Source: a virus. From it: a stretch of 20,664 nt of DNA. Numbering within the stretch: position 1 is the first letter of the stretch; every line of letters begins with the position of its first letter. The stretch spans positions 1 through 20,664 of the IMG/VR virus record IMGVR_UViG_3300043450_000076. One strand, given 5' to 3'. Below the pieces are notes generated by a model. That model did no database searches, was not told where the DNA came from, and saw only the letters and a program-made list of their open reading frames with translations. The position numbers and the translations under genes were made by a program. Below are positions 1 to 20,664 of this stretch, one piece after another.

Positions 1-33
1 CAATTAGAATACACCAAAGCATTTGCACAATGA
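1..33 (+). CDS. 3' end of an upstream gene (partial)
   Basis: The first frame is open from the window edge and reads QLEYTKAFAQ before a TGA at 31-33. That TGA overlaps the ATG of the next gene as ATGA, the same stop/start arrangement used at the next junction (359-362) and at 733-736. The junction pattern is the only argument that this is a real coding end; ten residues carry no functional information. Confidence 0.45.
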   Translation, partial: QLEYTKAFAQ

Positions 34-362
34 CCAAAGAATATTTACTACAAAAAGAATGTGTTAGGTTATTCAACCTATTGTACCCAAATTGTTATGG
101 GTTGTTGTTTTTGAATTATAACAATCCTCGCAATGCAAAAAACGGCTATTATTTAAAAGGCATTGGATTAATTTCTGGTGTTGCTGATATGACATTGCTA
201 ACAAAAAGTGGTGCAGTATTTATTGAATTTAAAACCATCAAAGGCAAACAATCTGATTTGCAAAAACAATGGGAACAAACCATAACATCATATGGCTACA
301 CTTATGTTATTATCCGAACACCACAACAATTCTTAAACCTTTTAAAAACTTATCCTTTATGA
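30..362 (+). CDS. VRR-NUC domain nuclease
   Basis: A 110-residue protein that is essentially one VRR-NUC domain, a PD-(D/E)XK nuclease fold. Visible active-site pattern: E10 in the first helix, D53 in GVADM, E66 and K68 in IEFKT, then the conserved KGKQSDLQKQWE helix with Q74 and Q78, followed by the GYTYVIIRTPQQF strand and helix. Stand-alone VRR-NUC proteins of about 100 residues are common in phages and are thought to act as structure-specific DNA endonucleases in replication or recombination, perhaps resolving branched DNA before packaging. The specific substrate here is unknown. The start ATG overlaps the preceding stop and its own TGA overlaps the next ATG, so it lies in a translationally coupled operon. 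Confidence 0.88.
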   Translation: MTKEYLLQKECVRLFNLLYPNCYGLLFLNYNNPRNAKNGYYLKGIGLISGVADMTLLTKSGAVFIEFKTIKGKQSDLQKQWEQTITSYGYTYVIIRTPQQFLNLLKTYPL

Positions 363-523
363 AACACGAAATACAACCAAACAATTTTAGACAATGGCAA
401 TTACACATACGCAAGATTTGTGTTCAATGTATTAAGCCAGATTATTCGGAAACAATTAAACCATTTACCATCAATTGGGAATTATATGGCAGAATTGTTA
501 TGGCAAAAAATATAAACAACTAA
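359..523 (+). CDS. small protein of unknown function (54 aa)
   Basis: Starts at the ATG inside ATGA (359-362) that also ends the nuclease gene. A longer version of the frame reaches back to 269 but would lie entirely inside the nuclease gene, so the short start is preferred. The product starts MKHEIQPNN and is basic, with two cysteines spaced three apart (ICVQC) and an aromatic C-terminal part. I recognise no family. The tight coupling to VRR-NUC suggests it belongs to the same early or middle DNA-metabolism operon; no function can be assigned. Confidence 0.6.
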   Translation: MKHEIQPNNFRQWQLHIRKICVQCIKPDYSETIKPFTINWELYGRIVMAKNINN

Positions 524-526
524 ACA

Positions 527-736
527 ATGAATGACACAAAATATTTACAATTGTTATTGATGTTAATGAACGCAATAACACAAAAAGATTTAAACAATAA
601 CAACGAATTGTTATGTGTTTTCCGTAAATGCCAAAACAATTTGGGTTTTAATCCGCACAAAAACAATATTAATATTGCTAATTATCTTGATAGAAAAACG
701 GACTATTATTTTGCTATGTTAAATCCAGAAGAATGA
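527..736 (+). CDS. hypothetical protein (69 aa)
   Basis: Starts three bases after the preceding stop and ends with a TGA embedded in the ATGA that starts the next gene. The N-terminal half is a hydrophobic leucine/methionine-rich helix (LQLLLMLMNAI), followed by an asparagine-rich linker and a segment with two cysteines (CVFRKC). The first helix is too short and too interrupted to be a confident membrane segment. No family recognised. Coding status is supported by the packed junctions on both sides rather than by homology. Confidence 0.6.
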   Translation: MNDTKYLQLLLMLMNAITQKDLNNNNELLCVFRKCQNNLGFNPHKNNINIANYLDRKTDYYFAMLNPEE

Positions 737-894
737 ACCATCATATTTACAAACACTTTATTGTCAATCGTGTATTTACTAATAACAATAATGAACAAAT
801 GGAAACAAATATTAATGCACAAGCAATTATTATTTTTTTGTTAGTTGTTGGATTGTTTTGGCTATACCATAAATTAAATGATAATGAATCGTAA
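733..894 (+). CDS. single-pass membrane peptide next to amidase (53 aa)
   Basis: A 53-residue frame starting MNHHIYKHF from the ATG of the ATGA at 733-736. Residues 1-28 are polar and asparagine-rich; residues 29-46 form one strong transmembrane helix (AIIIFLLVVGLFWLY); a short polar tail follows. It overlaps the amidase start. A one-helix peptide directly before a lysozyme-type amidase could be a small holin, pinholin-like or anchoring component, but no family match is visible and the role is inferred from position only. A more typical two-helix holin candidate lies at 1568-1804 on the other strand. Confidence 0.6.
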   Translation: MNHHIYKHFIVNRVFTNNNNEQMETNINAQAIIIFLLVVGLFWLYHKLNDNES

Positions 895-1309
895 CATCAA
901 ATATCTTGTTTGCCATTGTACGGCTACACCAGTAAACACCAAAGTTGAATCCATTAAACGATATTGGAAAAACGAATTAAAATGGAAATCTGTTGGTTAT
1001 CATAAAATAATTGAATCCAATGGTAACATTGTTACATTGGCTAATGATGATGCTATAACAAATGGTGTTAAAGGCTACAACGCAGAATCATTGCATTGTT
1101 CATATGTTGGCGGTCAATTCAAAGACAATAGAACCATCCAACAAAGACAAGCAATTGCTGGTTTGCTATTGCATTGGTTAACATTATACCCAAACGCAAA
1201 AATTATTGGACATAAGGATTTCCCTAATGCCAAAAAAGATTGCCCACAATTTGATGCAGAAAAAGAATATGGTTATTTGTATGATGTTATAAAACAACAA
1301 ACAACTTAA
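878..1309 (+). CDS. N-acetylmuramoyl-L-alanine amidase (T7 lysozyme-like endolysin)
   Basis: A 143-residue amidase_2 domain that cleaves the amide bond between N-acetylmuramic acid and L-alanine in peptidoglycan. Residues visible: H13 in VCHCTATP (zinc ligand), Y41 in VGYHKII, the conserved NAESLHCSYVGG and DNRTIQQ stretches, H112 in IIGHKDF (zinc ligand), K120 and C122 in KKDCP. This H/H/C zinc set with Y and K matches T7 gp3.5-type lysozymes, which are about 150 residues long. No signal peptide, so it would need a holin to reach the wall. The start could be 878 or 884 (MNRN). T7 lysozyme also inhibits its phage polymerase; nothing here shows that second role. The stop TAA (1307-1309) shares TTAA with the convergent gene. 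Confidence 0.93.
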   Translation: MIMNRNIKYLVCHCTATPVNTKVESIKRYWKNELKWKSVGYHKIIESNGNIVTLANDDAITNGVKGYNAESLHCSYVGGQFKDNRTIQQRQAIAGLLLHWLTLYPNAKIIGHKDFPNAKKDCPQFDAEKEYGYLYDVIKQQTT

Positions 1310-1578
1310 CCATTATCTTTTTTTAGCCGTTGATTTTCAACTTCAAGTTTAGTAATATGCTTTTGCATTTCAACAACCTTTTTGTTGAGTTCAACCAATT
1401 GGTTTTTTAATTCAGCAATTTCTTTTTCTTGTGATTTAGCCGTTGTTTCCCACATTTCCAAAACGGCTTTCGCTTGTTTGACATTGACAGAATCTTTGTC
1501 AATCCAGCCTTTTGCCATCCAAGTTATAATATTGGATAACGCAACCGCTAACACAATTAAAATGTCATTACTGGGCAT
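1306..1578 (-). CDS. N-terminally anchored coiled-coil protein (spanin-like candidate)
   Basis: Ninety residues: a hydrophobic segment at about residues 5-22 (ILIVLAVALSNIITWMA), a short linker, then an almost unbroken heptad-rich coiled coil from about 38 to 88 rich in K, E, Q, L and V. This is the layout of an inner-membrane spanin (Rz-like) or of other phage membrane/coiled-coil lysis proteins. It is the last gene of the minus-strand operon and overlaps the holin-like gene by 11 bases. No outer-membrane lipoprotein partner with a lipobox was found embedded or downstream, so the spanin assignment is inference from topology and position. Confidence 0.65.
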   Translation of the reverse strand: MPSNDILIVLAVALSNIITWMAKGWIDKDSVNVKQAKAVLEMWETTAKSQEKEIAELKNQLVELNKKVVEMQKHITKLEVENQRLKKDNG

Positions 1579-1804
1579 CTTCGTCTTTGCCTTTAATTTT
1601 TGTTAGGAACATCCAACCAGTTGATAACAATGTCAATAATCCACCAACCAATTCCAGCATAAGTTGTTCTGAAATCAATCCTTTGGCTACAATTGTTCCA
1701 CCAATAAATGTCAAAATGTGCCGTAACAAGGCAATAATTGCTGATTGCATAATTGTCAATTTAGGTTTGTTTGTTTGTTGTTTGCGTTTGAATAGTCTAA
1801 ACAT
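1568..1804 (-). CDS. putative holin (two transmembrane helices)
   Basis: A 78-residue protein starting MFRLFKRKQQ with a strongly basic N-terminus, a membrane segment at about residues 20-42 (including LTFIGGTIVAKGL), a second at about 48-67 (LELVGGLLTLLSTGWMFL) and a charged C-terminus KIKGKDEDAQ. Size, two-helix topology and charged ends fit a small phage holin, which would form the membrane lesion that lets the amidase reach peptidoglycan. It is followed with an 11-base overlap by the coiled-coil membrane protein. The start ATG at 1802-1804 is preceded by an A-rich leader and no Shine-Dalgarno sequence. Confidence 0.65.
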   Translation of the reverse strand: MFRLFKRKQQTNKPKLTIMQSAIIALLRHILTFIGGTIVAKGLISEQLMLELVGGLLTLLSTGWMFLTKIKGKDEDAQ

Positions 1805-1838
1805 AGATATTGTTTTTTAAATAATGTTGCAAATTGTG

Positions 1839-2390
1839 TTATGGTTCTGGCAAAATTGGCGGTGGCAAAGGTATTGATGGGCAAGTATCCGATGGGGACA
1901 AACCACCAATAACATTTGGATAAGGCACATTCAATGTTATGGTAAAATTCCAACCGCCAGTAATATCTTCCCCACTTTCAACAAATCTTTGACCATTGCT
2001 GGATTCCAAAAATTCCCAATTATATGTTGGCTCATTGCGTAATGCACTAATAATATCCAAGCCAATAAACAATGTATCGTTTAACACTTCATCTTCACTA
2101 TTCATCCAAGCATTAACTGCACCAGTAACAATGTCATTTACAATTTTGCCAGATTCCACTTTATCGGAAATAAACATATTAAATGTGAATGCAATCATTT
2201 CTTCATTGTCCACATTAACATTTTGTACATCAATAAATAACAATGGATATTGCAACCTTTCTCTGGTTATTGTTCGTAAATTAATTGTGTTATGCGTTCC
2301 GATGTCTATTGGACTGCCAGTTCCGAATGCGTTTATTTGCGGATGATTTATTGCTATTTGCATTAACGCATTCTTGATTTGATTCCACAT
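1839..2390 (-). CDS. putative tail-completion/neck protein
   Basis: A 183-residue protein starting MWNQIKNALM. The first half contains a pattern seen in phage tail-terminator or completion proteins (RLQYPLLFIDVQNV, then an alternating beta-rich section IAFTFNMFISDKV). The C-terminal part has a beta strand WNFTITLNVPYPN and ends in a proline-rich tail (PSIPLPPPILPEP). It sits after the connector and before the holin, a usual place for head-tail joining proteins. The assignment is inference from position, size and the short motif; it could equally be another minor virion protein. Confidence 0.4.
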   Translation of the reverse strand: MWNQIKNALMQIAINHPQINAFGTGSPIDIGTHNTINLRTITRERLQYPLLFIDVQNVNVDNEEMIAFTFNMFISDKVESGKIVNDIVTGAVNAWMNSEDEVLNDTLFIGLDIISALRNEPTYNWEFLESSNGQRFVESGEDITGGWNFTITLNVPYPNVIGGLSPSDTCPSIPLPPPILPEP

Positions 2391-2433
2391 ATTTCTTTAA
2401 TTTAATGATGTTGGTTTTGTGTATGCCCATTTG

Positions 2434-3021
2434 TTAGCATTCTTTACAAATTGTGTTACCATAATTGTATGGGTAATCCAATCCCCAATTGCCTCGTCTT
2501 GTGTTACGATTTAATACCATTCCAGTATTGTAATTGTTCATATTTGGGTAAATAGTATCCAATGCGGCTGGTGGATTATTCCACAATGGATATAGTGTTC
2601 TATTTTCCATCAAATGCCTTGTAATGCGTTCAGAATACCATTCAGCATCTGTTAATGCTTTGTCCGTTAATCTAACAATTTCATCAACGGACATTGGTGT
2701 TGTGTTATCACTTGTTTGCCGTACCATTCCCCTATTGACAAAACGGAATGACAACACAGATGGCAATTCATAATACAACCATTGGATAATACAAGGTTGT
2801 ATATGGTCTTGTAACAATGTTACATTTTGTGCTGATATTACTTGTGGTGTTGTTTTAACTTGTGTTACAATTTCATTGTACAACGCAGAACCTAAAATTG
2901 GTTGTATCCGCATTTCTTGAACCTTAACAATGGTTGGTCTAATCATTGTATAAGATACATTCTCATTAATGACTGAATTCTCAATCAATGTTTGTTCTGT
3001 TATAAATAATGCCTTGTTCAT
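2434..3021 (-). CDS. head-tail connector-like protein (DUF6712 type)
   Basis: A 195-residue mainly helical protein starting MNKALFITEQTLIENSVINENV. The order of motifs (an N-terminal 'ITEQ.L...S.I..NV' segment, IQPILGSALYNEI, then IIQWLYYELPSVLSFR and a C-terminal tyrosine/asparagine-rich tail) resembles the DUF6712 family common in Bacteroidota phages and usually found directly downstream of portal or capsid genes; it is thought to be a head-tail adaptor. The start codon overlaps the portal stop by four bases (ATGA). Family assignment is from memory of the pattern. Confidence 0.65.
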   Translation of the reverse strand: MNKALFITEQTLIENSVINENVSYTMIRPTIVKVQEMRIQPILGSALYNEIVTQVKTTPQVISAQNVTLLQDHIQPCIIQWLYYELPSVLSFRFVNRGMVRQTSDNTTPMSVDEIVRLTDKALTDAEWYSERITRHLMENRTLYPLWNNPPAALDTIYPNMNNYNTGMVLNRNTRRGNWGLDYPYNYGNTICKEC

Positions 3022-5294
3022 AGTGAAATTAATTTTTTGCCTTTCCTAATTACCAATTGTTGTTGCCAAATATGTCTGCAACTTGGTGACCTAACACCAT
3101 CTGATTCCGTGTACCAGCCACCACGCTTATTCCAAACACTATAACCCATAACATCAGAAATAGCATTGATGTCTTTTCTGGTGTACACTTTGCCAGACCG
3201 ACTCAAATTCATCATTGTTCTGCAAAATGCTCTTGATGTTACCAAATCGGAATCATCAAATTCGCCACTTCGCCATTCGTATTTATACATTACCTCAATT
3301 ACTTTTTCTTCTTCTGGTTGTGTTTTGTTTTTAATTTTCCTTTCAACTTCTTCTTGATATGGAAACTTATTGTTATCAACCAAATAAGCAATGCGTTTTG
3401 TTACTTTTGTTTCGCTAACACCTAATGCATTAGCCATTTGTTTTGCACCATCATTTGGATATTTTTTGTGATGTGCTAAAATTCGCTTATCCAAATCTTT
3501 ATCTTCAACTGACATTTCAGCAAAGGCATATAAACGATAACTATCCAATGTCATATCAATGTCTTGCATTTCAGTTATAATTGGCAAATGCTTTGTGTGT
3601 AACACAATATAATCTTCTGCATTTTTGCCCAATTTTAAACCAAGTTGATTTAACACTTGGTATTCCTTTTCCCCCCAAACACATTCTATTTCACCACCTT
3701 TAATAACACTAAATTGTTGTTCTTCACGAACACCCAATATTGTGTTAATTTCATCTTCGCTCAATCCAAATCCAGCCGTTAGCATTGTCTTTGCAATGTC
3801 TAATGTTATTTTATTTTGGGTATATTGTCTAACAATTCTCATAAGATTTTGGTATTCCCTACCACTTAATTTTCTTAAATGTTCATTTGAAATTAAACCT
3901 TGTTCTTTTGTTGGCTCTGGACTAACTTGTGTTGTAACATCAATGTCTGAAATTACTTCGCCTTCTGGTTTTGGTGGCAATGATACCAATGCCCTAATTT
4001 CATTTGGGGACATTGATTCCAATACTTTGTTAGCAACCAATGGGGATAGCGAATTGATGGCTTCAATAACATCTTTTACAGATGATTCTTGCTTTGTTTC
4101 CAATTCTGGCAATCCAGCCTTTTCACGCAATTCTTCTTTGGTCATTGCTTGTAACAATGCCGTTTCGGAAAGTTGTTGTGTTATAGGGTCTTTTGGAATT
4201 AATTCCAATGTTGTAACACCATTAAAAGATGCTAAATAATTAATCATCCTTTCAATTTTTTGCACTCTATCATCTACATAAACAGATTTAAAAATTTCAT
4301 ACGATGAAACCAATTCTGTGTTACCACCCAATTGACCTTCTGTTTTAACACCAAATAATAATGGATTTGTGCAACGATGCCCAATAAAAATTTCTTGTTG
4401 TACGGCATCATTTAACATTGAAAATTGTTTGTCCATATCCGATGGTGTCAATGGTAACAATGATGGTGCTTTACTTGCATCATCATTAAATGTTACAACA
4501 AACCTACCAGCGTTATCTGTACCAGAAAACTTGTTTTTTATTTGCCGTTCAATTTCATCTTGTTCTTCTGGTGTTGGTATGCCGTTATTAAAATTAATTA
4601 AATACCCACCCCAAAAATTGTTACGCAAATTGTTGTTATGAAAATTTGCAATTTCAACATCTGCTTCAATCCAAGCCAATGCACCCAAATATTCTGGCAA
4701 TGGATAATGTTTAACACCAGCCGAATAAACACGATAATAAAATAATTGCCTACCAATTCTATTGTTAGCATCAAAGCATTCAATTTTTTCTATATCCTTA
4801 TCGTGTGGAAATATTTGATTGCCTAATTCATCATACCAAGTTGCTATCTGAAATCCTTTGTTATCACGATTTACCCTAATCTTTTCAAATGGAATGTGTT
4901 CGTAACTATGAATTGTGCCAATCTTACTCCATTGAACTGCAATAGCAAAGCCATTAAACAATTCTAAATCCAATATTAGTTTTTCCGTAACATCATTTAA
5001 ATCTTCATCATTGAATGCGTTTTTAAAAAACTTGTTATAAATGGCTTCATCTTCCAATGTGGATTCTTGTGTTACCCTCCAACCTTTTCCAAATATGTAA
5101 TTTGTTTTGCCGTTTACAATTGCGTTATGCTTTGAACTGCGTCTGTACATATCCAGCAAATAATATGGGTATTCATTGTTAAGACCATATGTTATGTATT
5201 TGCCAGTTCTGTTATCCAACATAATCGGCACTTTGTGTTCAATGCCAGACCATTGCATAAATTGTTGAGCAATTTGTTTTTTATCAATTTGCAT
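3018..5294 (-). CDS. portal protein with helix-turn-helix-like and CRHxW C-terminal extension
   Basis: A 758-residue protein. Residues about 1-400 look like a phage portal of the PBSX/HK97 type: an N-terminal helix region, FGKGWRV near residue 68, the wing and stem region with GFAIAVQW, HIPFEKIRVNRD and IFPHDKDIEKIECFD, then the crown/clip region with GHRCTNPLLFGVKTEGQLGG. The portal dodecamer sits at one head vertex and is the channel through which terminase packages DNA. Residues about 600-758 are additional: a helix-turn-helix-like segment (ALGVSETKVTKRIAYLV, about 623-639) and a C-terminal GGWYTESDGVRSPSCRHIW block with C739, H741 and W743, reminiscent of motifs in minor head proteins fused to or placed after portals. 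The start overlaps the preceding gene by 11 bases. Portal call is strong; the function of the extension is unknown. Confidence 0.85.
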   Translation of the reverse strand: MQIDKKQIAQQFMQWSGIEHKVPIMLDNRTGKYITYGLNNEYPYYLLDMYRRSSKHNAIVNGKTNYIFGKGWRVTQESTLEDEAIYNKFFKNAFNDEDLNDVTEKLILDLELFNGFAIAVQWSKIGTIHSYEHIPFEKIRVNRDNKGFQIATWYDELGNQIFPHDKDIEKIECFDANNRIGRQLFYYRVYSAGVKHYPLPEYLGALAWIEADVEIANFHNNNLRNNFWGGYLINFNNGIPTPEEQDEIERQIKNKFSGTDNAGRFVVTFNDDASKAPSLLPLTPSDMDKQFSMLNDAVQQEIFIGHRCTNPLLFGVKTEGQLGGNTELVSSYEIFKSVYVDDRVQKIERMINYLASFNGVTTLELIPKDPITQQLSETALLQAMTKEELREKAGLPELETKQESSVKDVIEAINSLSPLVANKVLESMSPNEIRALVSLPPKPEGEVISDIDVTTQVSPEPTKEQGLISNEHLRKLSGREYQNLMRIVRQYTQNKITLDIAKTMLTAGFGLSEDEINTILGVREEQQFSVIKGGEIECVWGEKEYQVLNQLGLKLGKNAEDYIVLHTKHLPIITEMQDIDMTLDSYRLYAFAEMSVEDKDLDKRILAHHKKYPNDGAKQMANALGVSETKVTKRIAYLVDNNKFPYQEEVERKIKNKTQPEEEKVIEVMYKYEWRSGEFDDSDLVTSRAFCRTMMNLSRSGKVYTRKDINAISDVMGYSVWNKRGGWYTESDGVRSPSCRHIWQQQLVIRKGKKLISL

Positions 5295-5637
5295 ATTCTT
5301 TGTAGTTTATATCTGAATGATATGTTTTTGTATTTGCTTCTTGTAATTGAATATAAGCAATGCCAGTTTCAACAACACCAGTTGCATTTGCAATTCCGCT
5401 TGTGCAATCATATACAATGTAACTATATGTTCCTTCATTTAAATCTGGAATTGTAATTGTAAATAGGTCATATCTGTCTTTAATAACAGATTGATTATTG
5501 CTCTTGGTAATCAAAATATTTGTTGTTTCGTTTGATGATAAACTGCGTAATTGTAACAAATATCTTGTTCCAGATTTTTGCCTTTCAGACCAAGTAACTT
5601 CTATTGTGTTACTACTATTTGTGGTAAAGTATAACAT
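5284..5637 (-). CDS. small beta-rich virion-associated protein candidate
   Basis: A 117-residue protein made almost wholly of predicted beta strands: TIEVTWSER, RYLLQLRSLSS, TNILITKS, DLFTITIPDLNEGTYSYIVYD, then ETGIAYIQLQ. The 'L.EGTYSYIVYD' pattern is like an Ig or fibronectin-type sandwich. Its stop is inside the first codons of the portal gene (11-base overlap), which suggests coupled expression with the portal. Small beta-sandwich proteins in head gene clusters are often decoration proteins, but this is inference; I recognise no named family. Confidence 0.6.
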   Translation of the reverse strand: MLYFTTNSSNTIEVTWSERQKSGTRYLLQLRSLSSNETTNILITKSNNQSVIKDRYDLFTITIPDLNEGTYSYIVYDCTSGIANATGVVETGIAYIQLQEANTKTYHSDINYKEYAN

Positions 5638-5656
5638 CGTTTTATTATAAATACTT

Positions 5657-5689
5657 AATTGACAAAATGTTACTATTTTTTTGTCAATT
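5657..5689. repeat. 11-bp perfect inverted repeat at the 3' end of a glycosyltransferase gene
   Basis: AATTGACAAAA at 5657-5667 is followed, after an 11-base spacer, by its exact reverse complement at 5679-5689. The spacer contains the stop codon of the minus-strand glycosyltransferase gene (5673-5675). In minus-strand RNA this gives an AU-rich hairpin followed by an AU-rich but not uniform tract, so it could be a weak terminator, an RNA stability element or a protein site. Confidence 0.5.
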
Positions 5690-6746: not shown

Positions 6747-6762
6747 TTTATAACAAATTTTG

Positions 6763-6844
6763 ACAAATATAACAAAGCCCCACCATTTCTGGTGAGGCTC
6801 TGTCAACCCTTTAATTATGAATGAAAACCTTACAAATATAACAA
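6763..6844. repeat. 13-bp direct repeat in the intergenic region; candidate -7 boxes
   Basis: ACAAATATAACAA occurs at 6763-6775 and again at 6832-6844. Read on the minus strand each copy contains TATATTTG, an exact match to the Bacteroidota -7 promoter consensus TAnnTTTG. The gap from 6747 to 6854 is the longest non-coding stretch in the window. No convincing TTTG -33 element lies 19-21 bases upstream of either copy, so promoter function is only a possibility. Confidence 0.4.
6776..6799 (-). terminator. Rho-independent terminator candidate after the capsid/tail-tube genes
   Basis: On the minus strand AGCC-T-CACCA / GAAA / TGGTG-G-GGCT forms a hairpin with four and five paired bases around one mismatch and a four-base loop, and it is followed by TTGTTATATTTG, moderately U-rich. 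It lies after the stop at 6855 and before the glycosyltransferase start at 6746, so it would end or attenuate transcription of the head/tail-tube genes. Confidence 0.55.
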
Positions 6845-6854
6845 CAAATTAGTG

Positions 6855-7409: not shown

Positions 7410-7422
7410 ATGTTATAACAAT

Positions 7423-8355
7423 TTAGGCTTGTGTCCAACGGACGATTTCTTCTCCATAGGCGAATTGTACACCAGCCTTCCAAACGGCTTGCGTTCTAAC
7501 TTCATCGTTGTCTTTGGAATACCAAATATTAAATTGTTCTTCGTCAGACAGCAAATCTGTTCCATAAAACAAATTTGTAGTATGTGTTGCAACAATATGT
7601 CTTTTGGAAGCAATGTTACCATTTAGACCATTGACTGCAATTACTTTCATCGTTGTTCCAGGGAATGTTATTTCGCCATTTGCAAGTGCATTGGGGTCTT
7701 GATACCAATTAAAATAATTCTTATCAACTACGGCATTTGTTAGCGTTCGGAAAGTATCCCAACCACAGAATGCAACCAAGTTATCCTTACCAATAATTGC
7801 GGCTGGAACATTTTCGTAAATTGTGTTAAAGATGCCAATAATGTTACCAGTTGTAATGGTTGATGTATTGGCGGTGTTTGCACTAACAACAGAACCAGTT
7901 GCATCAGAAGCAGTTAGCAAACTAATTATACCAGAAAAATATGCGTTACCAGACCAAATTGCCGTTTCCATTGCTTGGGCAATTTTCTTAACTTTCAATT
8001 CAGCAAATTGTTGCTCAAATGGAACGGATTCAGCACCAGCGTTACTACCAGCCAACAATTGAGTTTGAATCCAATATTGTTCTAATTCCCTTGGACACAA
8101 TGTTTCTTGTGTTTTCATTCGTCCAACGGTCAATACCCTATTATTTAATGTTGTAGTACCAGATGGACTATAACCACAAGCACCACCACTTGATAATGTT
8201 AGGGTTGTGTCCATCAAGTTCAAAGCGGCTGAACTTTTAATACCAACTTGTGGTGTAAAAAGTTTAGCACTTCGTGCATCAAAGATTGCTTTGGTAATCA
8301 GAGGCAATCTGTTTTGTTCGGTGTAAACCGAAAGGTTTCCAAAATTGTATGCCAT
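7423..8355 (-). CDS. major capsid protein
   Basis: A 310-residue protein placed directly after the protease and scaffold-like genes, the standard place for the HK97-fold capsid subunit. It starts MAYNFGNLSVYTEQNRLPLI without a long cleavable delta domain, consistent with a separate scaffold gene. Features in line with the family: the KTQETLCPRELEQYWIQ helix region, the FEQQFAELKVKKIAQAMETAIWSG spine-helix-like stretch, and a C-terminal beta section FNIWYSKDNDEVRTQAVWKAGVQF. Length is normal for a capsid protein. Start is supported by an A-rich leader (AAACAAAATGG) and no competing upstream ATG. Confidence 0.82.
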   Translation of the reverse strand: MAYNFGNLSVYTEQNRLPLITKAIFDARSAKLFTPQVGIKSSAALNLMDTTLTLSSGGACGYSPSGTTTLNNRVLTVGRMKTQETLCPRELEQYWIQTQLLAGSNAGAESVPFEQQFAELKVKKIAQAMETAIWSGNAYFSGIISLLTASDATGSVVSANTANTSTITTGNIIGIFNTIYENVPAAIIGKDNLVAFCGWDTFRTLTNAVVDKNYFNWYQDPNALANGEITFPGTTMKVIAVNGLNGNIASKRHIVATHTTNLFYGTDLLSDEEQFNIWYSKDNDEVRTQAVWKAGVQFAYGEEIVRWTQA

Positions 8356-8375
8356 TTTGTTTTTTGTTTAAATTG

Positions 8376-11848: not shown

Positions 11849-11891
11849 TGTTATTGATGTTTGTGTAATGTTATTGTTTGTGTATTTCGTG

Positions 11892-14783
11892 TTAAGTTGG
11901 ACCAATGCCCATTGCAACAAATGAAAAACTATAAACTTTTGTGTTTTGTGGATTGTTAGCAGAATATTGATGTGTTACATCCAACCTCCAATAACTACCT
12001 TCATCTGTTATTGCCGTAACAAGATATAAAGCCTTTTGGCTTGGGTCTTGCACACCAGTTACTTGCAAATAAACATATACTGGAAAATTAACAAATGTTT
12101 CCATTATTTGGAAATATGTGGTAAAATCAGATTGTGTTGCAAATTCTTTTTCATCTATGTAAATTATTGTTATAGAATCAAAATTATCGTTATCACTTGT
12201 CCATTCTGTTGTTCCAGCACTTGGTGTGGAATTATTATCGTTAAATTTCCAGCGTCCACTTATTGCACCATCAACACCATCCGCTCCATTTGTTCCGTTT
12301 GTTCCGTTTGTTCCGTTTGCACCTTTATCGGCTACCAATGTCCAATAATCTGGTGCAGTTACGGCTGGTGTTATTCCAGTAACAAAATCTTTTGCTATCC
12401 AAGATGCACCATTGTATTGAACAATTTCTGTTGGTGCATACAATGTTGAAGAAACATATGTGCCTTCCCAAGTTGCACCAACCAAACCTTGTGTTATGGG
12501 TATTACTTTGCCTCCTAATACTGGATTATATTCTTTTACGGCATTTGCTGATTCTGATGTTTTTATTGCTGGTGGGTCATTTGTTACTGGTATCAAAGAT
12601 GTAGGAACAAAATTTGGCAAATCCAATACTCTACGCAATGTTACTTTGGCTAACATTTGTTTACCCAAAATATAATCTTCAATGCTAATTAATCTAAACA
12701 ATATGTTTTTGTAGAATATTAATTTGTTAAAATTCAAATTGTTTATATCCCTTGGTGTTAGCAAAGCATATGCCGTTAATGTCATTGCATCAACGGACAT
12801 AATTTCCTCAATGTACTTTTTCCAATAAGCGTTGTACAAATTGTTATTAGTGTACAATATGTTTCCGCTAACATTTGGTGCATTATAAAATATGCGTTTG
12901 GGCATACCAAATGCTAAATCTATTGTTGGGTTATTTGGGTTGTTTATATGGGATATAAACGGCAAATATTCCAATGAAACATCTGTTGGATTATACAAAT
13001 ATTCAAATTGATATGCCGATAAGAAATTGTATTGGGCAATTCGGTATCCACATTCCAATGGTCTTATGTTAGCAGAAACGGCTGACCCATCATAATCCCA
13101 AGTTCTACCAATTGGCAATGCACCTTGAAATGTTGCTGGAATTATTGTAGCACATTTAAGTTCTGTTATACGGCTTCCTTTTCCGTAATAATTCTGCAAA
13201 TCTGCATCTATGCCACCATAACCACTTTCGTCTGTTGGGTACAATTGCTTATATGATTTGTGCAAATAATCATTTGTTTGCCTATATTTAAATATAACAT
13301 TTTTAATGTTATTAGACATTCCATTTGTTATGGTTTGGTCTGCACCTTCATCTATTTTTTCTGTCCAATCCAATGCGTTGTTGCCAACATCATAAAAATC
13401 TTTCCAAGGTTCAATGTATAATTTTTTGCTATTTTGTCTATCTTGCGTTATGTACAAGTTAAACATCTTTTGCAAATCTTGAATTAAATCAACTTGTGTT
13501 ACATCTTTTGGAACTACTTTTTTGAAATCGTATTGGTCAAAAACTTCAACACCTTTTATGACCAATGCCGTCTTTGGCGCACCACTAATAATTCTTCCAT
13601 CAAGACCTACAATTGCAGTTAAGTTTTGTGTTGGTTGGAATCCAACAACAAACTCATAAGATGTGTTAGGCTCTAATGTTATGTTAGACCAATTGACATA
13701 AAACGCAGAATCTCCTTGTTGTGATGTTTGCGTTCTTGAATACAATGTATTTGGTACAACTGGATTGCTTTGTGTTGAACCAATTACTTTTTGTATTGCA
13801 ATGTATAAATTAATTGTGGTTGTGTTTAATGTAAACAATGGTGTTATACTGGCATTAAAATCCCAAACACTATTTACACCATTGTTAGGAGTTGTAAAAA
13901 CATTTGTTGTTGCATCCCAATAACCAGAATTATCATAAAAAATTCCACTATTGTCTAAATTAAATGGAATGCGTTTCTTTTGATTTATTGTTCCAGTAAC
14001 ACACGCTTGGCTTGTATAATTTGGAAATGAAATACTACCAGTTGCGGCTATGTACGAATTAAATCCAGATGTTGGTGTTCCAGCCTTATCCAAAGAATAC
14101 GGCACAACCAATGACCTAAATAAATAGGAATTAAAAAATGTAGATTCATATGTGTAACCGCTTTCTTTAAATATTAAATCAATCAAATGTTTTACATATA
14201 CTGATGGTGTGAATTTATACCAAGGTATTCTTGGTGTAATGTTTTGTTGTAACACATCATTAGCACCATAATTGTCTACTAAACCATAAACAAATCCGCT
14301 TAAATATCCATTAACCCAACTATTTTCTACAATGCCACTTGTTGGTGCGTGAGCCATTGCAGTTAATCCAGACAAATCGGATAACAATTTATTGTTTATT
14401 GTTTGGTAAAAATCTATTTCTTCGGAAAAGATTGAGCATTCATAAGTAACATTATTATTGGTTTTTGATACCGATAACAATTGTAATACACCTTGAAATA
14501 TTTCTAATCCATCTTGAACAACAATACACCTAATTTTTTTGTTAGGTGTAAAACCACCAGCAAAAGATTGAATGTTATAAGCGAATTTAAACGCTTTGGC
14601 ATTTTCTGATGTGTTGGGAATTGTTATTGTTTTACTAAACGATGCTTTGCGTTTTGTTATATCTTCTAAATCATCAATAGCATATGTTACGGCAATATCT
14701 AATTCACTATTTAAATCCAATAAGTATTGTACTTCTTGGTTGGAATCATTTAATGGGAATATTTTTATACGAATGTTGCTCAT
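11892..14783 (-). CDS. large tail-tip/baseplate protein with carbohydrate-binding and collagen-like segments
   Basis: A 963-residue protein starting MSNIRIKIFPLNDS. The first part (LDLNSELDIAVTYAIDDLED, then KASFSKTITIPNTSENAKAF and a GVLQLLSV strand) is a pattern typical of a large tail-hub-like protein of Bacteroidota phages. Residues about 772-814 (WEGTYVSSTLYAPTEIVQYNG, then PDYWTLV) resemble a family 5/12-type carbohydrate-binding module with its three aromatic positions. Residues 821-839 are collagen-like GxY triplets (GANGTNGTNGTNGADG). The last 124 residues form a separate beta-rich end domain starting GRWKFNDNN. Together this suggests a structural hub fused to a receptor- or sugar-binding tip. 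Starts four bases inside the upstream gene's end (ATGA). Confidence 0.7.
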   Translation of the reverse strand: MSNIRIKIFPLNDSNQEVQYLLDLNSELDIAVTYAIDDLEDITKRKASFSKTITIPNTSENAKAFKFAYNIQSFAGGFTPNKKIRCIVVQDGLEIFQGVLQLLSVSKTNNNVTYECSIFSEEIDFYQTINNKLLSDLSGLTAMAHAPTSGIVENSWVNGYLSGFVYGLVDNYGANDVLQQNITPRIPWYKFTPSVYVKHLIDLIFKESGYTYESTFFNSYLFRSLVVPYSLDKAGTPTSGFNSYIAATGSISFPNYTSQACVTGTINQKKRIPFNLDNSGIFYDNSGYWDATTNVFTTPNNGVNSVWDFNASITPLFTLNTTTINLYIAIQKVIGSTQSNPVVPNTLYSRTQTSQQGDSAFYVNWSNITLEPNTSYEFVVGFQPTQNLTAIVGLDGRIISGAPKTALVIKGVEVFDQYDFKKVVPKDVTQVDLIQDLQKMFNLYITQDRQNSKKLYIEPWKDFYDVGNNALDWTEKIDEGADQTITNGMSNNIKNVIFKYRQTNDYLHKSYKQLYPTDESGYGGIDADLQNYYGKGSRITELKCATIIPATFQGALPIGRTWDYDGSAVSANIRPLECGYRIAQYNFLSAYQFEYLYNPTDVSLEYLPFISHINNPNNPTIDLAFGMPKRIFYNAPNVSGNILYTNNNLYNAYWKKYIEEIMSVDAMTLTAYALLTPRDINNLNFNKLIFYKNILFRLISIEDYILGKQMLAKVTLRRVLDLPNFVPTSLIPVTNDPPAIKTSESANAVKEYNPVLGGKVIPITQGLVGATWEGTYVSSTLYAPTEIVQYNGASWIAKDFVTGITPAVTAPDYWTLVADKGANGTNGTNGTNGADGVDGAISGRWKFNDNNSTPSAGTTEWTSDNDNFDSITIIYIDEKEFATQSDFTTYFQIMETFVNFPVYVYLQVTGVQDPSQKALYLVTAITDEGSYWRLDVTHQYSANNPQNTKVYSFSFVAMGIGPT
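12267..12323 (-). repeat. collagen-like GxY codon repeat within the tail-tip gene
   Basis: The segment encodes consecutive Gly-x-y triplets, with a near-perfect 9-base unit (TTCCGTTTG on the + strand) repeated at least three times at about 12294-12322. Such short repeats can change copy number by slippage, which would lengthen or shorten the fibre. Confidence 0.8.
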
Positions 14784-16087
14784 AATATGTTATTAATATA
14801 ACTTTCATCCACTTGAATGTTCAATGATTTTTGTTTGTCATTTGCCCTTTTTACTATGTTATAACTTGATGTGGCAATAACACATTCTACTAATGTTGTT
14901 GAGCCAGTTATTTGTGATAAATCCAAAAAACAAATTGGGGAATATAACATTTCTTGCAACCAATCATATTCTGATTCTGTTAGGATATGTGAATTTAAAT
15001 TCCAACTTGGTTTTTGATTTCCAGAATAAACTTGCGTTGCCGTTGTTTCATAGACTCTTGTAGTACTTCCACCGCCAGATTGAAGAACAAATGAAAGCAT
15101 ATTTCTTAAAAATGTGTTTCTATTTATCTCTAATGTTTTTCGGTTTTTGTAGGCAAAATAAAACGATTCAATAACACCAAATTTATTAACAAACCATAAC
15201 CCTATTTTCTTGTATGGTGTACATTGTTTCATAACATACCTTACGGCTATTGTTGGCGAACTTGATGCAGTAACAAATTGTATTGTATAACTTCCATTTT
15301 CATAATCTGGAAACAAAACACTACCAGCAGAACCATCTGAACATTGACCAGATGTTAATGCTTTAATATTCATTGGACCAGATGCAAATCTTTTAATAAC
15401 TGCGGTATTTGTAGTCCCACCAGCCGTAACATTAAATCCTCGTAACAATGTATTTTGTGCATTAAAATATTCTACCCTTGCTGATGTTATAACATTGCCA
15501 CTTGTTATGTTTTGTCCCATAAACAACCAATCATATGTGTCTGAATAAACATATTTTGTTAGCCAACTGACCAATGGCAAATATGATGTTAGCGTTGCAC
15601 CACTACCAGTCGGATATCTTGTGGTCATTAAATCTGGTGTGTTGTTTATAAAATCCAATTGAGGCAATCCATTATAAACTGCGTATTTATCGGATTGTGT
15701 TACCAAACCAGTTGTAACAACAGATGGTGGATTTGTTGTGTTGTCAATATATTGTTCACCAAGAATAACACTATATTTAGATGTCAAACCATTTGGTGTT
15801 GCAAGATTGAGAAATCCAGCCGTTGTTATAGGCAATTTTGCTGGAACAATCAATGTCCTAACAATACTTGAAACATCAAAATATCCAATGCCACTTGGAA
15901 CTGCTACATTTGCAATTACATCTTTATCTGCTTTTAATCGTGTTACAACATTATTGCTTGAATCCCTAACATCACAAATAAAACGAAATTGGTTTGCAGT
16001 TGCGGCTATTGAACTACTAACAATATATCTTTCTGGATTGTAACATTGTGTTACATCATTTGGGGAATTTAATACCGATATTGCCAT
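14780..16087 (-). CDS. tail structural protein (distal tail/baseplate candidate)
   Basis: A 435-residue beta-rich protein starting MAISVLNSPNDVTQCYNPERY. Distinctive parts: FRFICDVRDSSNNVVTRLK, GYFDVSSIVRTL, IGLWFVNKFGVIESFYFAYK and a C-terminal LTESEYDWLQEMLYSPICFLDL followed by strands ending in NIQVDESYINNIL. The 'W.N.FG..E.F.F' signature occurs in a family of large structural proteins common in Bacteroidota phages next to the tail-tip gene. By order (after gp10-like, before the hub and tape measure) it is likely a distal tail or baseplate component. Exact role not known. Confidence 0.6.
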   Translation of the reverse strand: MAISVLNSPNDVTQCYNPERYIVSSSIAATANQFRFICDVRDSSNNVVTRLKADKDVIANVAVPSGIGYFDVSSIVRTLIVPAKLPITTAGFLNLATPNGLTSKYSVILGEQYIDNTTNPPSVVTTGLVTQSDKYAVYNGLPQLDFINNTPDLMTTRYPTGSGATLTSYLPLVSWLTKYVYSDTYDWLFMGQNITSGNVITSARVEYFNAQNTLLRGFNVTAGGTTNTAVIKRFASGPMNIKALTSGQCSDGSAGSVLFPDYENGSYTIQFVTASSSPTIAVRYVMKQCTPYKKIGLWFVNKFGVIESFYFAYKNRKTLEINRNTFLRNMLSFVLQSGGGSTTRVYETTATQVYSGNQKPSWNLNSHILTESEYDWLQEMLYSPICFLDLSQITGSTTLVECVIATSSYNIVKRANDKQKSLNIQVDESYINNIL

Positions 16088-16088
16088 T

Positions 16089-16745
16089 TTAATTTATTTT
16101 TATTGTTACTCGTTTTTGAAATCTTTCCATCATTATTTGTTCAAATTCTTCTATGAATTGTGGTGTCAATGTGTTATTAACAAAATGCGTTCCCCTAATA
16201 CCATTTGCTTGGATGCTTCTGCTCAATGCGTATGCGGCTCGTTTTGTTTGCTTTGTTATATCTCGCTTTGTTACTTTCAATTCCCTACCGCTTTTGTTTT
16301 TTCTTGGTGTAACATCAATTTGCAATGGTTTTGCTTTGATGTATTGTAACATTGCTTTTAATGGTGGTGGCTTGTCCTTGAATTGATATGGGGAATTTTC
16401 AGCACCACTTTTAACACTATCCCTACCTTTTACACCTTCGTTGATAAAATCCCAATACGATGGTGCAGTAATGGCTATAACAATTTTCTTTTTGTTTACC
16501 ATTATTGGTTCTGCTTTTATGCCTTGAATTAATCCTCTGCGTGATGTATATGCTTTTTGTGATAACAATTCACTTTTCATTTTGTCAATTGCATCTTTGA
16601 CAAACGATGCCACTACTTTGACATCTTCATCCAATTCATTGTTATTTGGTTCTGTTGTTATGCCAATTTCCTTTAAGGAATCAAAATCCTTTTCTGTCAA
16701 TTTGCCACCAGATTGAACCTTTAATTTTAGTTTGAATACCAACAT
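16089..16745 (-). CDS. HK97 gp10-like tail/neck protein
   Basis: A 218-residue basic protein starting MLVFKLKLKV. It shows the gp10-family layout: an amphipathic helical start, SYWDFINEGVKGRDSVKSG (the 'Y..F.N.G..G' signature), a proline-rich loop (YQFKDKPPPLKAML), then AAYALSRSIQANGIRGTHFVNNTLT, a usual C-terminal signature of such proteins. Members act at the head-tail joint or in tail completion. The start ATG at 16743-16745 lies about 30 bases after the end of the chaperone frameshift extension. Somewhat longer than the roughly 150-residue standard because of an N-terminal addition. Confidence 0.65.
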   Translation of the reverse strand: MLVFKLKLKVQSGGKLTEKDFDSLKEIGITTEPNNNELDEDVKVVASFVKDAIDKMKSELLSQKAYTSRRGLIQGIKAEPIMVNKKKIVIAITAPSYWDFINEGVKGRDSVKSGAENSPYQFKDKPPPLKAMLQYIKAKPLQIDVTPRKNKSGRELKVTKRDITKQTKRAAYALSRSIQANGIRGTHFVNNTLTPQFIEEFEQIMMERFQKRVTIKIN

Positions 16746-17548: not shown

Positions 17549-17550
17549 AT

Positions 17551-17566
17551 TGTGTTATTTTATAAT
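17551..17566 (-). repeat. duplicated leader before the tail chaperone start
   Basis: On the minus strand ATTATAAAATAACACA is immediately before the chaperone start (two bases away). The identical 16-mer lies at 18921-18936, directly before the start of the GT-A glycosyltransferase. Both copies follow methyltransferase genes and include their stop codons. Confidence 0.7.
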
Positions 17567-18132
17567 TTTATGTACCATTGTGTGAATGAGATAATTTTTC
17601 TTTCTGGTATCAATTCATCAACTGCATTCATTACACCATTCCAAGTTGTACAATAATCATCCCCACATAAATATCCACCTTTTTTTACTTTTGATTTCCA
17701 ACATTGAATGTCTTGTTTTACTGGTTCGTATTCGTGTGACGCATCAATATAAACCATATCAAAAGTATTGTTACCATAACTATTAACTATATCTAAACTA
17801 TTACTTTTTACTAATGTTATATTTTCTGCTAATAAATTATTTTGCTTTATGTTATTAATATGATGTAAGGCTTCTTCATAATTAGGCATTGGGTACATTC
17901 CGCTTTGATGTTCTGGACTACCTTCAAAATGGTCTATGCCTATTATTTCGTGAGGTATAATATGTTTGCATAACACTTCGTGAAATATTGCAATGCTTCT
18001 TCCACGAAATACACCAATTTCTGCAATGCGTATTTTCTTTTTTGATTTCCAATTACTTTCTGTAATAAAATGTTCTAACATTGCTCCTTGGGTTTCCATT
18101 TGCGACCACCCAAATATTCTTTCGTAATACAT
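17560..18132 (-). CDS. SAM-dependent methyltransferase (Methyltransf_24-like), copy A
   Basis: A 190-residue class I methyltransferase. Motif I EIGVFRG at 38-44 binds S-adenosylmethionine; GIDHFEG at 65-71 provides the acidic residue for the ribose; FDMVYIDASHEY at 124-135 and GGYLCGDDY at 152-160 form the later motifs, with candidate metal-binding acidic residues as in the sugar or macrolide O-methyltransferases of the TylF/CmcI/Methyltransf_24 kind. Neighbours are a GT-A glycosyltransferase (stop and start share one base) and a related methyltransferase, so a sugar or glycan hydroxyl is the likely target. Related to copy B (18925-19428) by motifs and by the WYI..K C-terminus. Confidence 0.8.
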   Translation of the reverse strand: MYYERIFGWSQMETQGAMLEHFITESNWKSKKKIRIAEIGVFRGRSIAIFHEVLCKHIIPHEIIGIDHFEGSPEHQSGMYPMPNYEEALHHINNIKQNNLLAENITLVKSNSLDIVNSYGNNTFDMVYIDASHEYEPVKQDIQCWKSKVKKGGYLCGDDYCTTWNGVMNAVDELIPERKIISFTQWYIKL

Positions 18133-18920
18133 TATAAATAATTTAATTTTGTTTTGTGTTCTAATGGAATGTCAAAAATACCTATTCCACCAGCATAACC
18201 ATTTATCATTAATGATTTTATTTCTTCTTCTTGATACTGACGATTATGAAAGCCTAATCCACCTTCATCTGCTAAATTCCATTCTGTATTTTTCCAAATA
18301 TGTCTTTGCAACATTATGTTATAATCCATTCTGTGCAAATGTAAAAGGTGCAAATTATAACAATAATTATTTGGATTATAATAATTGTTACTATTAATAT
18401 ATTTTGCATAATGGAAACCCACCGCATATTGCAATGGAACTTTTGTTATTAATGGTTTGTCATATAATGGCTCTCTTGACCATTTGTTTCTTTGTTCCAT
18501 TATTGGTAACAACAAATTTAATGGTGCTTCTTCTTCCATTATATGCACTATCTCATAACCAACACAATTTACATATTGATGATTACTTTGCCTAAATTCT
18601 TCTAACACATCTAACAAACTTTTATCTTCTGTTGTGTATATAATTTCATCTGCATCTGTGTATAACACAACTTCGTATTTTTCCAGTAATTCTATTTGGA
18701 ATGCTTGTGCTTGTTCTACCAGCCAAGTATGTCTGCCAGCCTCTGGATTAAATATTGGTATAACATTAACTCCAATGTTTTCTGTGCTTTTATCTTTTGT
18801 TTCGTGGTCTAACACATAAATATCTTCGTTTGCAAATGTCTTACGATAATGTTTTAACCATAATGGTAAAATAACAGATTCATCTTTTGCTATTGTAAAT
18901 ATTGCAAATGGTTTTTTCAT
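18132..18920 (-). CDS. GT-A type glycosyltransferase (family 2/Glyco_tranf_2_4-like)
   Basis: A 262-residue protein starting MKKPFAIFTIAKDESVILPL, which is the first strand and nucleotide-binding loop of this fold, followed by WLKHYRK, DIYVLDHETKDKST and the metal-binding acidic motif TDADE at 88-92. A C-terminal HRMDY...LQRHIWKNTEW section is typical of related glycosyl transferase family 2-like enzymes (also annotated DUF or Glyco_tranf_2_4). Likely adds a sugar to a phage or host molecule; donor and acceptor unknown. Located between the two methyltransferases, which suggests a shared glycan substrate. Confidence 0.75.
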   Translation of the reverse strand: MKKPFAIFTIAKDESVILPLWLKHYRKTFANEDIYVLDHETKDKSTENIGVNVIPIFNPEAGRHTWLVEQAQAFQIELLEKYEVVLYTDADEIIYTTEDKSLLDVLEEFRQSNHQYVNCVGYEIVHIMEEEAPLNLLLPIMEQRNKWSREPLYDKPLITKVPLQYAVGFHYAKYINSNNYYNPNNYCYNLHLLHLHRMDYNIMLQRHIWKNTEWNLADEGGLGFHNRQYQEEEIKSLMINGYAGGIGIFDIPLEHKTKLNYL

Positions 18921-18936
18921 TGTGTTATTTTATAAT
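18921..18936 (-). repeat. duplicated leader before the GT-A glycosyltransferase start
   Basis: Second copy of the 16-mer ATTATAAAATAACACA (minus strand), adjacent to the ATG at 18918-18920. The stop codon TAA of the preceding methyltransferase lies inside it. Confidence 0.7.
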
Positions 18937-19428
18937 GTACCAACTATCTTCTTGTGGTTCTTCTGTAACAATAAATTCTTTTCCTATGTTATTGGTAAAT
19001 TCTTGCAATGCTTTTCTAACACCATCTAAACTTCTATCGTGACCGCATAAAATACCTCCTTGTTTTACTTTGTTCCAGTAATTTGTTATATCGTGTAATG
19101 CCCATTTGTATGAATGGTCTGCATCAACATAGATAAAATCGTATTTGTTATCTTCCAATTCCTCTAATGCTTTATCACTATATTTTGGGATAAGCGTAAA
19201 TCTACCATTTGTTACATATGGATTTAATGTTTCAGTTGCTATGCGTTCTCTTTCTGACATAAATTCTTTGTTAATAAATCCCCACCAATCTTGATACCCT
19301 TCAAATGGGTCTATTCCAATCAATGTTAGATTAGGAAATTTGTCTAACAATCTTTTTGCATTTGCTCCTTCCCAAACTCCAATTTCTATTCCAAGTATCG
19401 GATTTGTTGTGTCTATTTGTGAATACAT
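18925..19428 (-). CDS. SAM-dependent methyltransferase (Methyltransf_24-like), copy B
   Basis: A 167-residue class I methyltransferase with EIGVWEG at 15-21 (motif I), GIDPFEG at 38-44, YDFIYVDADHSY at 96-107 and GGILCGHD at 124-131. The same four motifs in the same spacing are found in copy A, and both proteins end in WYI(I)K, which points to a shared ancestor. Copy B has no N-terminal extension and lacks the GDDY acidic pair of copy A (GHD instead), so the two may act on different positions or substrates. The start at 19428 has an A-rich leader and no Shine-Dalgarno. Confidence 0.78.
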   Translation of the reverse strand: MYSQIDTTNPILGIEIGVWEGANAKRLLDKFPNLTLIGIDPFEGYQDWWGFINKEFMSERERIATETLNPYVTNGRFTLIPKYSDKALEELEDNKYDFIYVDADHSYKWALHDITNYWNKVKQGGILCGHDRSLDGVRKALQEFTNNIGKEFIVTEEPQEDSWYIIK

Positions 19429-19448
19429 ATTTTTTTGGTTTTATGGTT

Positions 19449-20120
19449 TTAGAATATAATAAAATGTGCGTGATTCATATTTGGATGCCAATCTGTTGGT
19501 GTTGTTGAATATATTGTTGGGTTATTTAAGCCAATCCATCTTTCGGATTGATATCGTGTTTGTTTAGCAACTTGTGGCAATGTTCTAACATAACTTGATT
19601 TTGCCCACCAAAAGTTACCACCAAAAAATGATGTTCCATTTGGGTCATCTTGTATAATTTGCGGATGTTCAGATTGTGTTAGCCAAAAAGCACCAGCACA
19701 ATCTATTTTGGTGTTTTCAAGTTTTTGAAATATTGCTCTGCGTTGAACAACATTATAAAATAACATTGTCCTTGCCCATATCATATTTGACAATGTTGGT
19801 CTAAATGAACCTTTTGTATGACCATAAAAATATAACACATTATCTTCTATCAAACTTGCTTCTCGCATTTTTTCTAATGTTACATATTCATCCCCAGAAC
19901 CTCGCTCAATAATGATTTTAATTTTGTCTTTGACCATTGACTGGTGTAACATTTCTTTGATTAATTTACGCAATTCTGGTTTGCCAACAATGCCTATTCT
20001 AATTTCTTCAAGTTCTTCTATTAATGCCCAATTGCATATTGTGTTAAAATGTTGCAATACGATTAATGATGTTATGTTAATCTCATTAACATAAATGTGG
20101 TAATAGTGGATTTTTTTCAT
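19449..20120 (-). CDS. glycosyltransferase-like protein of the glycan block
   Basis: A 223-residue protein starting MKKIHYYHIYVNEIN. Recognisable pieces: VLYFYGHTKGSF (the 'YFHTKG' pattern), MIWARTMLFYNVV, and DPNGTSFFGGNFWWAKSSYVRTLP (a 'GNFWWA..SY...LP' pattern), ending near GLNNPTIYSTTPTDWHPNMNHAHF. These are seen in glycosyltransferase-like proteins of bacterial polysaccharide clusters and in some phages. I cannot name the family securely and no classical DxD is evident. Starts two bases after the terminase stop, so it is read from the same transcript. Confidence 0.55.
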   Translation of the reverse strand: MKKIHYYHIYVNEINITSLIVLQHFNTICNWALIEELEEIRIGIVGKPELRKLIKEMLHQSMVKDKIKIIIERGSGDEYVTLEKMREASLIEDNVLYFYGHTKGSFRPTLSNMIWARTMLFYNVVQRRAIFQKLENTKIDCAGAFWLTQSEHPQIIQDDPNGTSFFGGNFWWAKSSYVRTLPQVAKQTRYQSERWIGLNNPTIYSTTPTDWHPNMNHAHFIIF

Positions 20121-20122
20121 TG

Positions 20123-20664
20123 TTATGTATTTAAAATTGTGTATTTGCCAGAATTGGTAACACCAAGTTTGTTCAATGCAACATATCGGATTGCATCACA
20201 ACAATGATTAAATGAATCAATTGGAATGCCAGTTGTGTTACCATCTCTATCTGTTGCCCAAGTATATGAACGAAATTCTTTAATTAGGTTTACGCTTTCT
20301 TTTGTTACTTTCAATTTATACCTTTTTAAAATGTCAATCCCATTCCGTATGGAATCTGGACCTTTTTTTGCTGGTACAATGTTATAACCTAATCTGCGGA
20401 TTTCTTCAATTGATTTTGGTTCTGCTGAATCAGCAACAATTTCAAATGAACGATTAATGTTATAATACTTTAATTTGTTTGCTATGTCTTGATTTGTTAA
20501 TCCTTTGTCATATAACAATTCGTGTAAGTACAATTCATCTTTGTTACGATAAATAGCAACCAATGCCGTTGGGTCTTGTGCAAATCCCCAGTCCATTCCA
20601 AATGCAACAAATTTTGTGTTAGTAACATCAATTGAATCCACCATTTCAAAATCATCAAAGATTG
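20123..20664 (-). CDS. terL: terminase large subunit, C-terminal nuclease domain (partial)
   Basis: The frame is open through the right window edge (IFDDFEMVDSIDV precedes FVAFGMDWGFAQDPTA), so this is the C-terminal part of a longer protein; the ATG at 20642-20644 is internal. The piece has the RNase H-like nuclease signature of TerL: DWGFAQD (first aspartate), IVADSAEPKSIEEIRRLG (second), and DSFNHCCDAIRYV (third), which together bind two metal ions and cut concatemeric DNA during packaging. The ATPase half with its Walker motifs would be outside the window. It is the first virion gene in the direction of transcription seen here. Confidence 0.92.
   Translation of the reverse strand, partial: IFDDFEMVDSIDVTNTKFVAFGMDWGFAQDPTALVAIYRNKDELYLHELLYDKGLTNQDIANKLKYYNINRSFEIVADSAEPKSIEEIRRLGYNIVPAKKGPDSIRNGIDILKRYKLKVTKESVNLIKEFRSYTWATDRDGNTTGIPIDSFNHCCDAIRYVALNKLGVTNSGKYTILNT

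Follow-up and report, generated by a model that had tools for sequence, protein, structure and literature searches.

The 20,664-base viral fragment IMGVR_UViG_3300043450_000076 (hereafter the window, ~33% GC) lies within a closed 33,329-base circular genome, phage A, in which at least 18 short DNA words are nearly or completely missing. We consider it highly likely that this is extreme restriction-site avoidance under selection that a varied pool of Type II restriction systems continues to exert, and that the pressure is not neutralized by the DNA modifications these phages likely encode. In exact counts over the window, ACGT, AGCT, CATG, CCGG, CGCG, CTAG, GATC, GGCC, and TCGA were each found zero times, and GCGC was found once, at 13577..13580 (unstranded), which is also its sole copy in phage A. 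Under an order-1 Markov model, the window would be expected to hold 38 ACGT, 27 AGCT, 139 CATG, 12 CCGG, 32 GATC, 27 GGCC, and 19 TCGA, together with 7 CGCG and 15 GCGC (both small expectations at 33% GC) and 15 CTAG (a word of lesser weight when taken alone, since its pooled observed-to-expected ratio was 0.37 in 29 stretches of Bacteroidota chromosome). Taken together, these ten core palindromes were seen once against 331 expected. Under the same model, GTAC (39 seen, 45 expected), TGCA (137, 178), and the AT-only palindromes AATT (358, 355), ATAT (190, 183), TATA (119, 129), and TTAA (206, 250) were all near expectation. Further words were missing from the window, including CAGG/CCTG (1 seen, 71 expected), CCCG/CGGG (0, 26), ACNGT (1, 54), CTNAG (0, 20), and CASTG (0, 28). 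These counts bear out a preliminary description, which had reported GATC, CATG, and AGCT as completely absent, the other six palindromes as apparently absent, GCGC as present once, and TGCA, GTAC, and AT-only palindromes as common, and they confirm that the avoidance is real and wider than had been stated.

The absence extends to the rest of the genome and to its relatives. Record G001 (25,477 bases) matches window positions 1-16421 at 99.99%, and record G005 (13,234 bases; also L095) shares sequence with G001 and with the right end of the window (20223-20664), such that the circle closes through overlaps identical at 442/442 and 127/127 bases. Apart from the one GCGC, the whole circle holds no copy of the core palindromes; the 12.7 kb outside the window, where the preliminary description had suggested looking for further sites, adds none of the ten. 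CAGG/CCTG (~90 expected in coding DNA) and ACNGT also have a sole copy each in phage A, at 7659..7662 and 8126..8130, respectively (both unstranded). Three sister records, G002 (30,609 bases), G004 (14,871 bases), and G003 (7,666 bases), are 15-17% diverged and show a like near-absence, which is common to records from several metagenomes. G004, the only record whose habitat could be placed, is listed under an accession belonging to a freshwater virome from Lake Soyang (PMC7553992), so virus particles were the source of the DNA sequenced for at least one member. CTNNAG occurs 0 times in phage A, 5 times in G002, and 5 times in G003; its loss from phage A seems to be a more recent purge or one confined to a single branch.

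Missing words of this kind might be a by-product of AT-rich composition, strand asymmetry, and codon preference, with no selection involved, and a GC content of 33% does reduce the expectation for GC-rich words, while CTAG is low in bacteria generally. We permuted synonymous codons across all genes of phage A and G002 while keeping the protein sequence and codon counts fixed, a control that the preliminary description had called for, and the absence held over the whole of phage A. Each of the ten palindromes was expected 14-72 times in phage A but observed 0-1 times, and expected 19-76 times in G002 but observed 0-2 times; for CAGG, 90 and 81 copies were expected, respectively, and a single copy was observed in each. 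Over the coding DNA of phage A as a whole, the ten core palindromes fell from ~387 expected to 1. Avoidance was also visible in individual codons: before a codon starting with G, histidine was encoded 32 times by CAC and 0 times by CAT, compared to 76 CAC and 221 CAT elsewhere, and only 1 of the 410 codons preceding ATG ends in C. Overlapping sequence contexts (TGCA, GTAC, CCAG, and GCGT) were normal or enriched. Among the 29 Bacteroidota chromosome stretches (12-20 kb), CTAG was the only word strongly depleted overall, which argues against host composition as the source of the avoidance. With 14-76 copies of each palindrome expected in the shuffles, an origin without selection is refuted, and we give it virtually no chance of being correct.

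To describe the geometry of the missing words, we scanned for every dinucleotide XY followed by n bases and its complement, with n from 0 to 8 and, for n above 0, with occurrences containing a core word omitted. Strong avoidance was found for ten words at n=0; for ACNGT (1 seen, 79 expected), CTNAG (0, 62), and CGNCG (0, 35) at n=1; and for CTNNAG (5, 116), GCNNGC (2, 26), GGNNCC (1, 36), and CGNNCG (4, 25) at n=2, while no strong avoidance was found at n=3-8. Asymmetric words were purged as well, namely CAGG (2 seen, 170 expected), CCCG (0, 60), ACAGC (1, 82), ACGAC (0, 46), and GAGAC (1, 23). Orthodox Type II enzymes typically recognize half-sites spaced 0-2 bases apart, and confinement of the avoidance to these spacings points to Type II restriction-site geometry instead of hairpins or composition. 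Selection against hairpins, or against another effect of palindromes on DNA structure, would fit the fact that the majority of the purged words are palindromic, but half-sites 3-8 bases apart are not avoided, there is no loss of GTAC, TGCA, or the AT-only palindromes, and CAGG and CCCG, which are asymmetric, are purged to the same degree. We therefore regard a structural origin as extremely unlikely.

The purge has persisted over ~15% divergence. The aligned parts of phage A and G002 are separated by 3,321 substitutions (15.3% divergence). When the same substitutions were placed randomly on the same bases and codon positions, 338 ± 18 core sites were created, compared to the 12 that were created in reality. 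Similarly, random placement gave 98 core sites for G004 and 124 for G003, against 6 and 10 real ones, respectively. Selection against these sites was thus ongoing during divergence.

We then compared these genomes with 86 other phage sequences, a non-random set of mostly capsid or TET relatives, by scoring a word as eliminated when it was present at <10% of its expected count. Of the 16 palindromes tested, phage A and G002 each lack 10, and G004 and G003 each lack 9; across all 24 words tested, 18 are eliminated in phage A and 17 in G002. The nearest rival, the TET-carrying L175 (10,264 bases), loses 7 palindromes (ACGT, CATG, CCGG, CGCG, CTAG, GATC, and GGCC), L053 loses 5, and the remaining 84 lose 0-4. 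As a check on the score, it gives GATC for T7 and GGCC for SPO1, both of which are known losses. Other phages lose subsets of the same words, while TGCA is lost by none and GTAC only by Helicobacter phage KHP30. Phages of ~52% GC whose capsid-region protein is ~59% identical (L006-L080) mainly lack AGCT, CTAG, CGCG, and GATC; in this large group CASTG and GTSAC are scarce too, and a related backbone here bears another imprint of restriction. Such a patchwork of losses would fit lineage-specific restriction pools, with the present clade facing nearly all of them. A single broad-specificity nuclease, or a few degenerate systems, could stand in for ~18 Type II systems, and in this clade the core words are indeed all gone together with no partial state. 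However, related and unrelated phages lose different subsets, so the words are separable, and no single degenerate word spans the set while sparing GTAC, TGCA, AGCC, and CCAG; we consider this alternative very unlikely.

Genes that likely encode DNA-modification systems coexist with the purge. The preliminary description had seen no DNA-modification enzyme, which stands for the window but not for the phage, since a cassette lies just beyond the window's right end, upstream of the terminase, or for its sisters, which carry a putative 7-deazaguanine pathway. In phage A, the slot between a ParB-like gene and the terminase genes holds a 234-amino-acid protein, X234, and a TET/JBP oxygenase. On the minus strand of G005/L095, the oxygenase (TET) lies at 1538-2323 (PF12851, 45.4 bits against a cut-off of 34.9), X234 at 2332-3036, and the ParB-like gene at 3033-3605, the cassette being recognized by Pfam and tblastn. 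The oxygenase is 50% identical to a gene of Prochlorococcus phage MED4-184 and has relatives in at least 597 IMG/VR contigs, mostly adjoining ParB and another gene, often FkbM-like. The ParB-like/X/TET-JBP arrangement recurs upstream of the terminase in many aquatic phages (L142:3753-5789, L195:3316-5371, and L202:4662-6786), with either a 234-amino-acid protein or an FkbM-like methyltransferase in the X position (the latter, of the FkbM family, in L142), and phages that differ in other respects share TET proteins at 72-80% identity. Neither Pfam nor NCBIfam gave a match for X234, and its fold, predicted at low confidence (predicted local distance difference test score 57.5), has no significant match in the PDB; a glycosyltransferase would suit its context, but with neither sequence nor fold in support we left the protein unnamed. 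There was no match to the C5 cytosine methylase PF00145 in G000, G001, G002, G004, or G005, and no DNA methylase PF01555 was found in the phages. The TET substrate may be thymine, in which case a C5 methylase is not needed, or 5-methylcytosine made by the host.

In sisters G002 and G004, the same slot instead holds a dpdA-like-queC-queD-queE-folE cluster (L085:243-3435 in G002 and L094:3242-6434 in G004), and gene sets of this type have proved able to shield phage DNA against restriction (PMC6884629). QueC matches PF06508 (2.8e-62 in G002), QueD (PTPS) and FolE were recognized by Pfam, and QueE matches TIGR04508 at 4e-33, under its 240-bit cut-off. By eye, folE has an N-terminal extension resembling a phosphoribosyltransferase. 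The DpdA-like protein (243 amino acids) matches the PADLOC DpdA model at 4.6e-07 and the NCBIfam DpdA model at 29 bits against a cut-off of 200, and a Fusobacterium phage gene with a queuine tRNA-ribosyltransferase annotation at 43%. Cassette genes are themselves nearly site-free, with 0-1 sites per gene where 5-15 would be expected, whereas 4-16 are present in the TET homologues of five other phages. The cassette genes thus either lost their sites once they had been acquired or derive from phages that had undergone a like purge, and in either case modification did not end avoidance. The presence of cassettes in both branches, together with the observation that modification usually relaxes avoidance (PMC6286503), might suggest a fossil, purged under past restriction and kept by inertia since the lineage gained DNA modification. 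We find this very unlikely, given that 12 new sites arose where chance would have given ~338 and that the cassette genes are as site-free as they are.

Altogether, these findings support the pressure from many Type II systems that the preliminary description had proposed: as read from the phage side, it survives the codon, hairpin, and host-composition tests and is still enforced during divergence. Mutations that create a site would be removed because genomes bearing one would be cut on entry, leaving nearly no copies of at least 18 short words, while GTAC, TGCA, and the AT-only palindromes would be left alone as words untargeted in the host pool. The cutting agents would be Type II endonucleases of Bacteroidota hosts, and since a single strain would normally restrict fewer than 18 words, a host population, not one strain, is the probable source of the pressure. 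The TET/JBP and 7-deazaguanine cassettes would make modified DNA without blocking these enzymes, or would target other defences, and the modifications may be partial, late, or sequence-limited. Such elimination typically affects orthodox Type II sites and occurs in non-temperate phages (Rusinov 2018, PMC6286503).

Several points weigh against continuing selection by a Type II pool. CAGG, CCCG, ACAGC, and ACGAC are asymmetric, and we know of no common enzyme that matches them. The analysis identified no host, restriction enzyme, or methylome; when 399 Chitinophagales and 396 Bacteroidota genomes were searched in the style of clustered regularly interspaced short palindromic repeat (CRISPR) spacers, no match was convincing, a weak negative with two candidates scored per genome. 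Matches to Chitinophagales involved only repetitive tail-fibre sequence, and those to Bacteroidota involved almost only folE-gene homology. At least 18 specificities are more than a single strain usually has, which obliges us to assume a shared pool of hosts; restriction systems per genome have a genus mean of ~2.5 and reach ~16 in Microcystis (PMC8262939). Finally, modification systems, which these phages likely encode, relax avoidance in other phages: among T-even-like coliphages, those with a hydroxymethylase avoid 2.4% of sites, compared to 55.8% in those without (PMC6286503).

Phage A is a small, probably freshwater phage whose host is probably a member of the Bacteroidota, a host assignment drawn from relatives of the terminase and portal and in metagenome-assembled genomes only. 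The C-terminal part of the terminase large subunit (TerL) lies at 20123..20644 on the minus strand, as do the portal, the capsid-region gene, and the two individually placed Methyltransf_24 genes below, and has PHROG terminase matches; its full-length G002 homologue matches the TerL of a Flavobacterium psychrophilum phage at 48%. A TerL search matched only metagenome-assembled contigs (Flavobacterium, Chitinophagales, and two Bacteroidota) at 37-52%, with Flavobacterium and Chitinophagales at 50-52%. The portal protein (3018..5294) matches phrog_33693 at 1.9e-32 and the portal of Nonlabens phage P12024S at 26%. A capsid-region protein (7423..8355; phrog_11320, unknown function), which is probably the major capsid protein by position and conservation, was the query used to find relatives and is 91-93% identical in the sister clade and 56-60% in the ~52% GC phages; a search of genome contigs for a prophage or relative carrying it returned nothing. 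Too few instances of a Bacteroidota promoter motif were present in intergenic DNA. None of the proteins examined was recognized as an integrase, which agrees with the higher frequency of elimination in non-temperate phages (PMC6286503). A Methyltransf_24/TylF-like methyltransferase (17560..18132; PF13578, 1.5e-18) is probably involved in sugar or small-molecule O-methylation and not a DNA methylase. A second Methyltransf_24 protein (18925..19428; PF13578, 9.4e-17; phrog_2675) carries a PHROG label of DNA methyltransferase, which is a partial and unconvincing match. Glycosyltransferase-like and Methyltransf_24 genes (window 5673-6806 and 17560-20120) lie amid structural genes, and their products possibly decorate the capsid or tail. 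A predicted tail-fibre protein has a collagen-like, Gly-rich repeat (window ~12265-12323), which matches Chitinophagales genomes through simple repetition.

Base-oxidation operons of the TET/JBP kind have reportedly been described in phages by Iyer and Aravind and in later work on phage TETs. Like these, the phage A cassette has a Tet_JBP domain (PF12851) adjoining ParB-like and transferase-type genes, but it differs in that these records have no C5 cytosine methylase and that the cassette is swapped for the putative 7-deazaguanine pathway in the sisters. The sister cluster resembles phage 7-deazaguanine systems (DpdA with QueC/QueD/QueE/FolE; PMC6884629) in having QueC, QueD, QueE, FolE, and DpdA-like genes together; unlike in the known systems, however, the genome is still site-avoiding, the cluster adjoins a ParB-like gene and the terminase, and the DpdA-like protein is short and far under the NCBIfam cut-off. 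As for the avoidance itself, it is like that of T7 and SPO1 (Rusinov, PMC6286503) in the near-complete loss of orthodox Type II words from a double-stranded DNA phage with no recognized integrase, but T7 and SPO1 lose 1-2 palindromes by the same score, whereas here 10 palindromes and 8 other words are lost, and in phages that carry modification cassettes as well. These phages illustrate the extent that site avoidance can reach, to the point of visibly shaping codon choice, and they run against the published rule that restriction-site pressure is relieved by DNA modification. More tentatively, the lineage may run two anti-restriction strategies: an enforced purge of at least 18 Type II words and an exchangeable modification slot beside the terminase (ParB-X-TET/JBP or ParB-dpdA-queCDE-folE), in which the modifications, instead of relaxing avoidance, would serve against other defences (CRISPR, Type I, or bacteriophage exclusion) or leave the important sites unprotected, with the word list a record of the host community's restriction repertoire. 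The same backbone and the same purge with two different modification cassettes form a natural pair, which lets the purpose of the modifications be tested. Our findings also suggest that the word-elimination spectra of uncultured phages could be read as a map of the restriction specificities of their habitat, with unassigned words such as CAGG, CCCG, ACAGC, and CTNNAG included.

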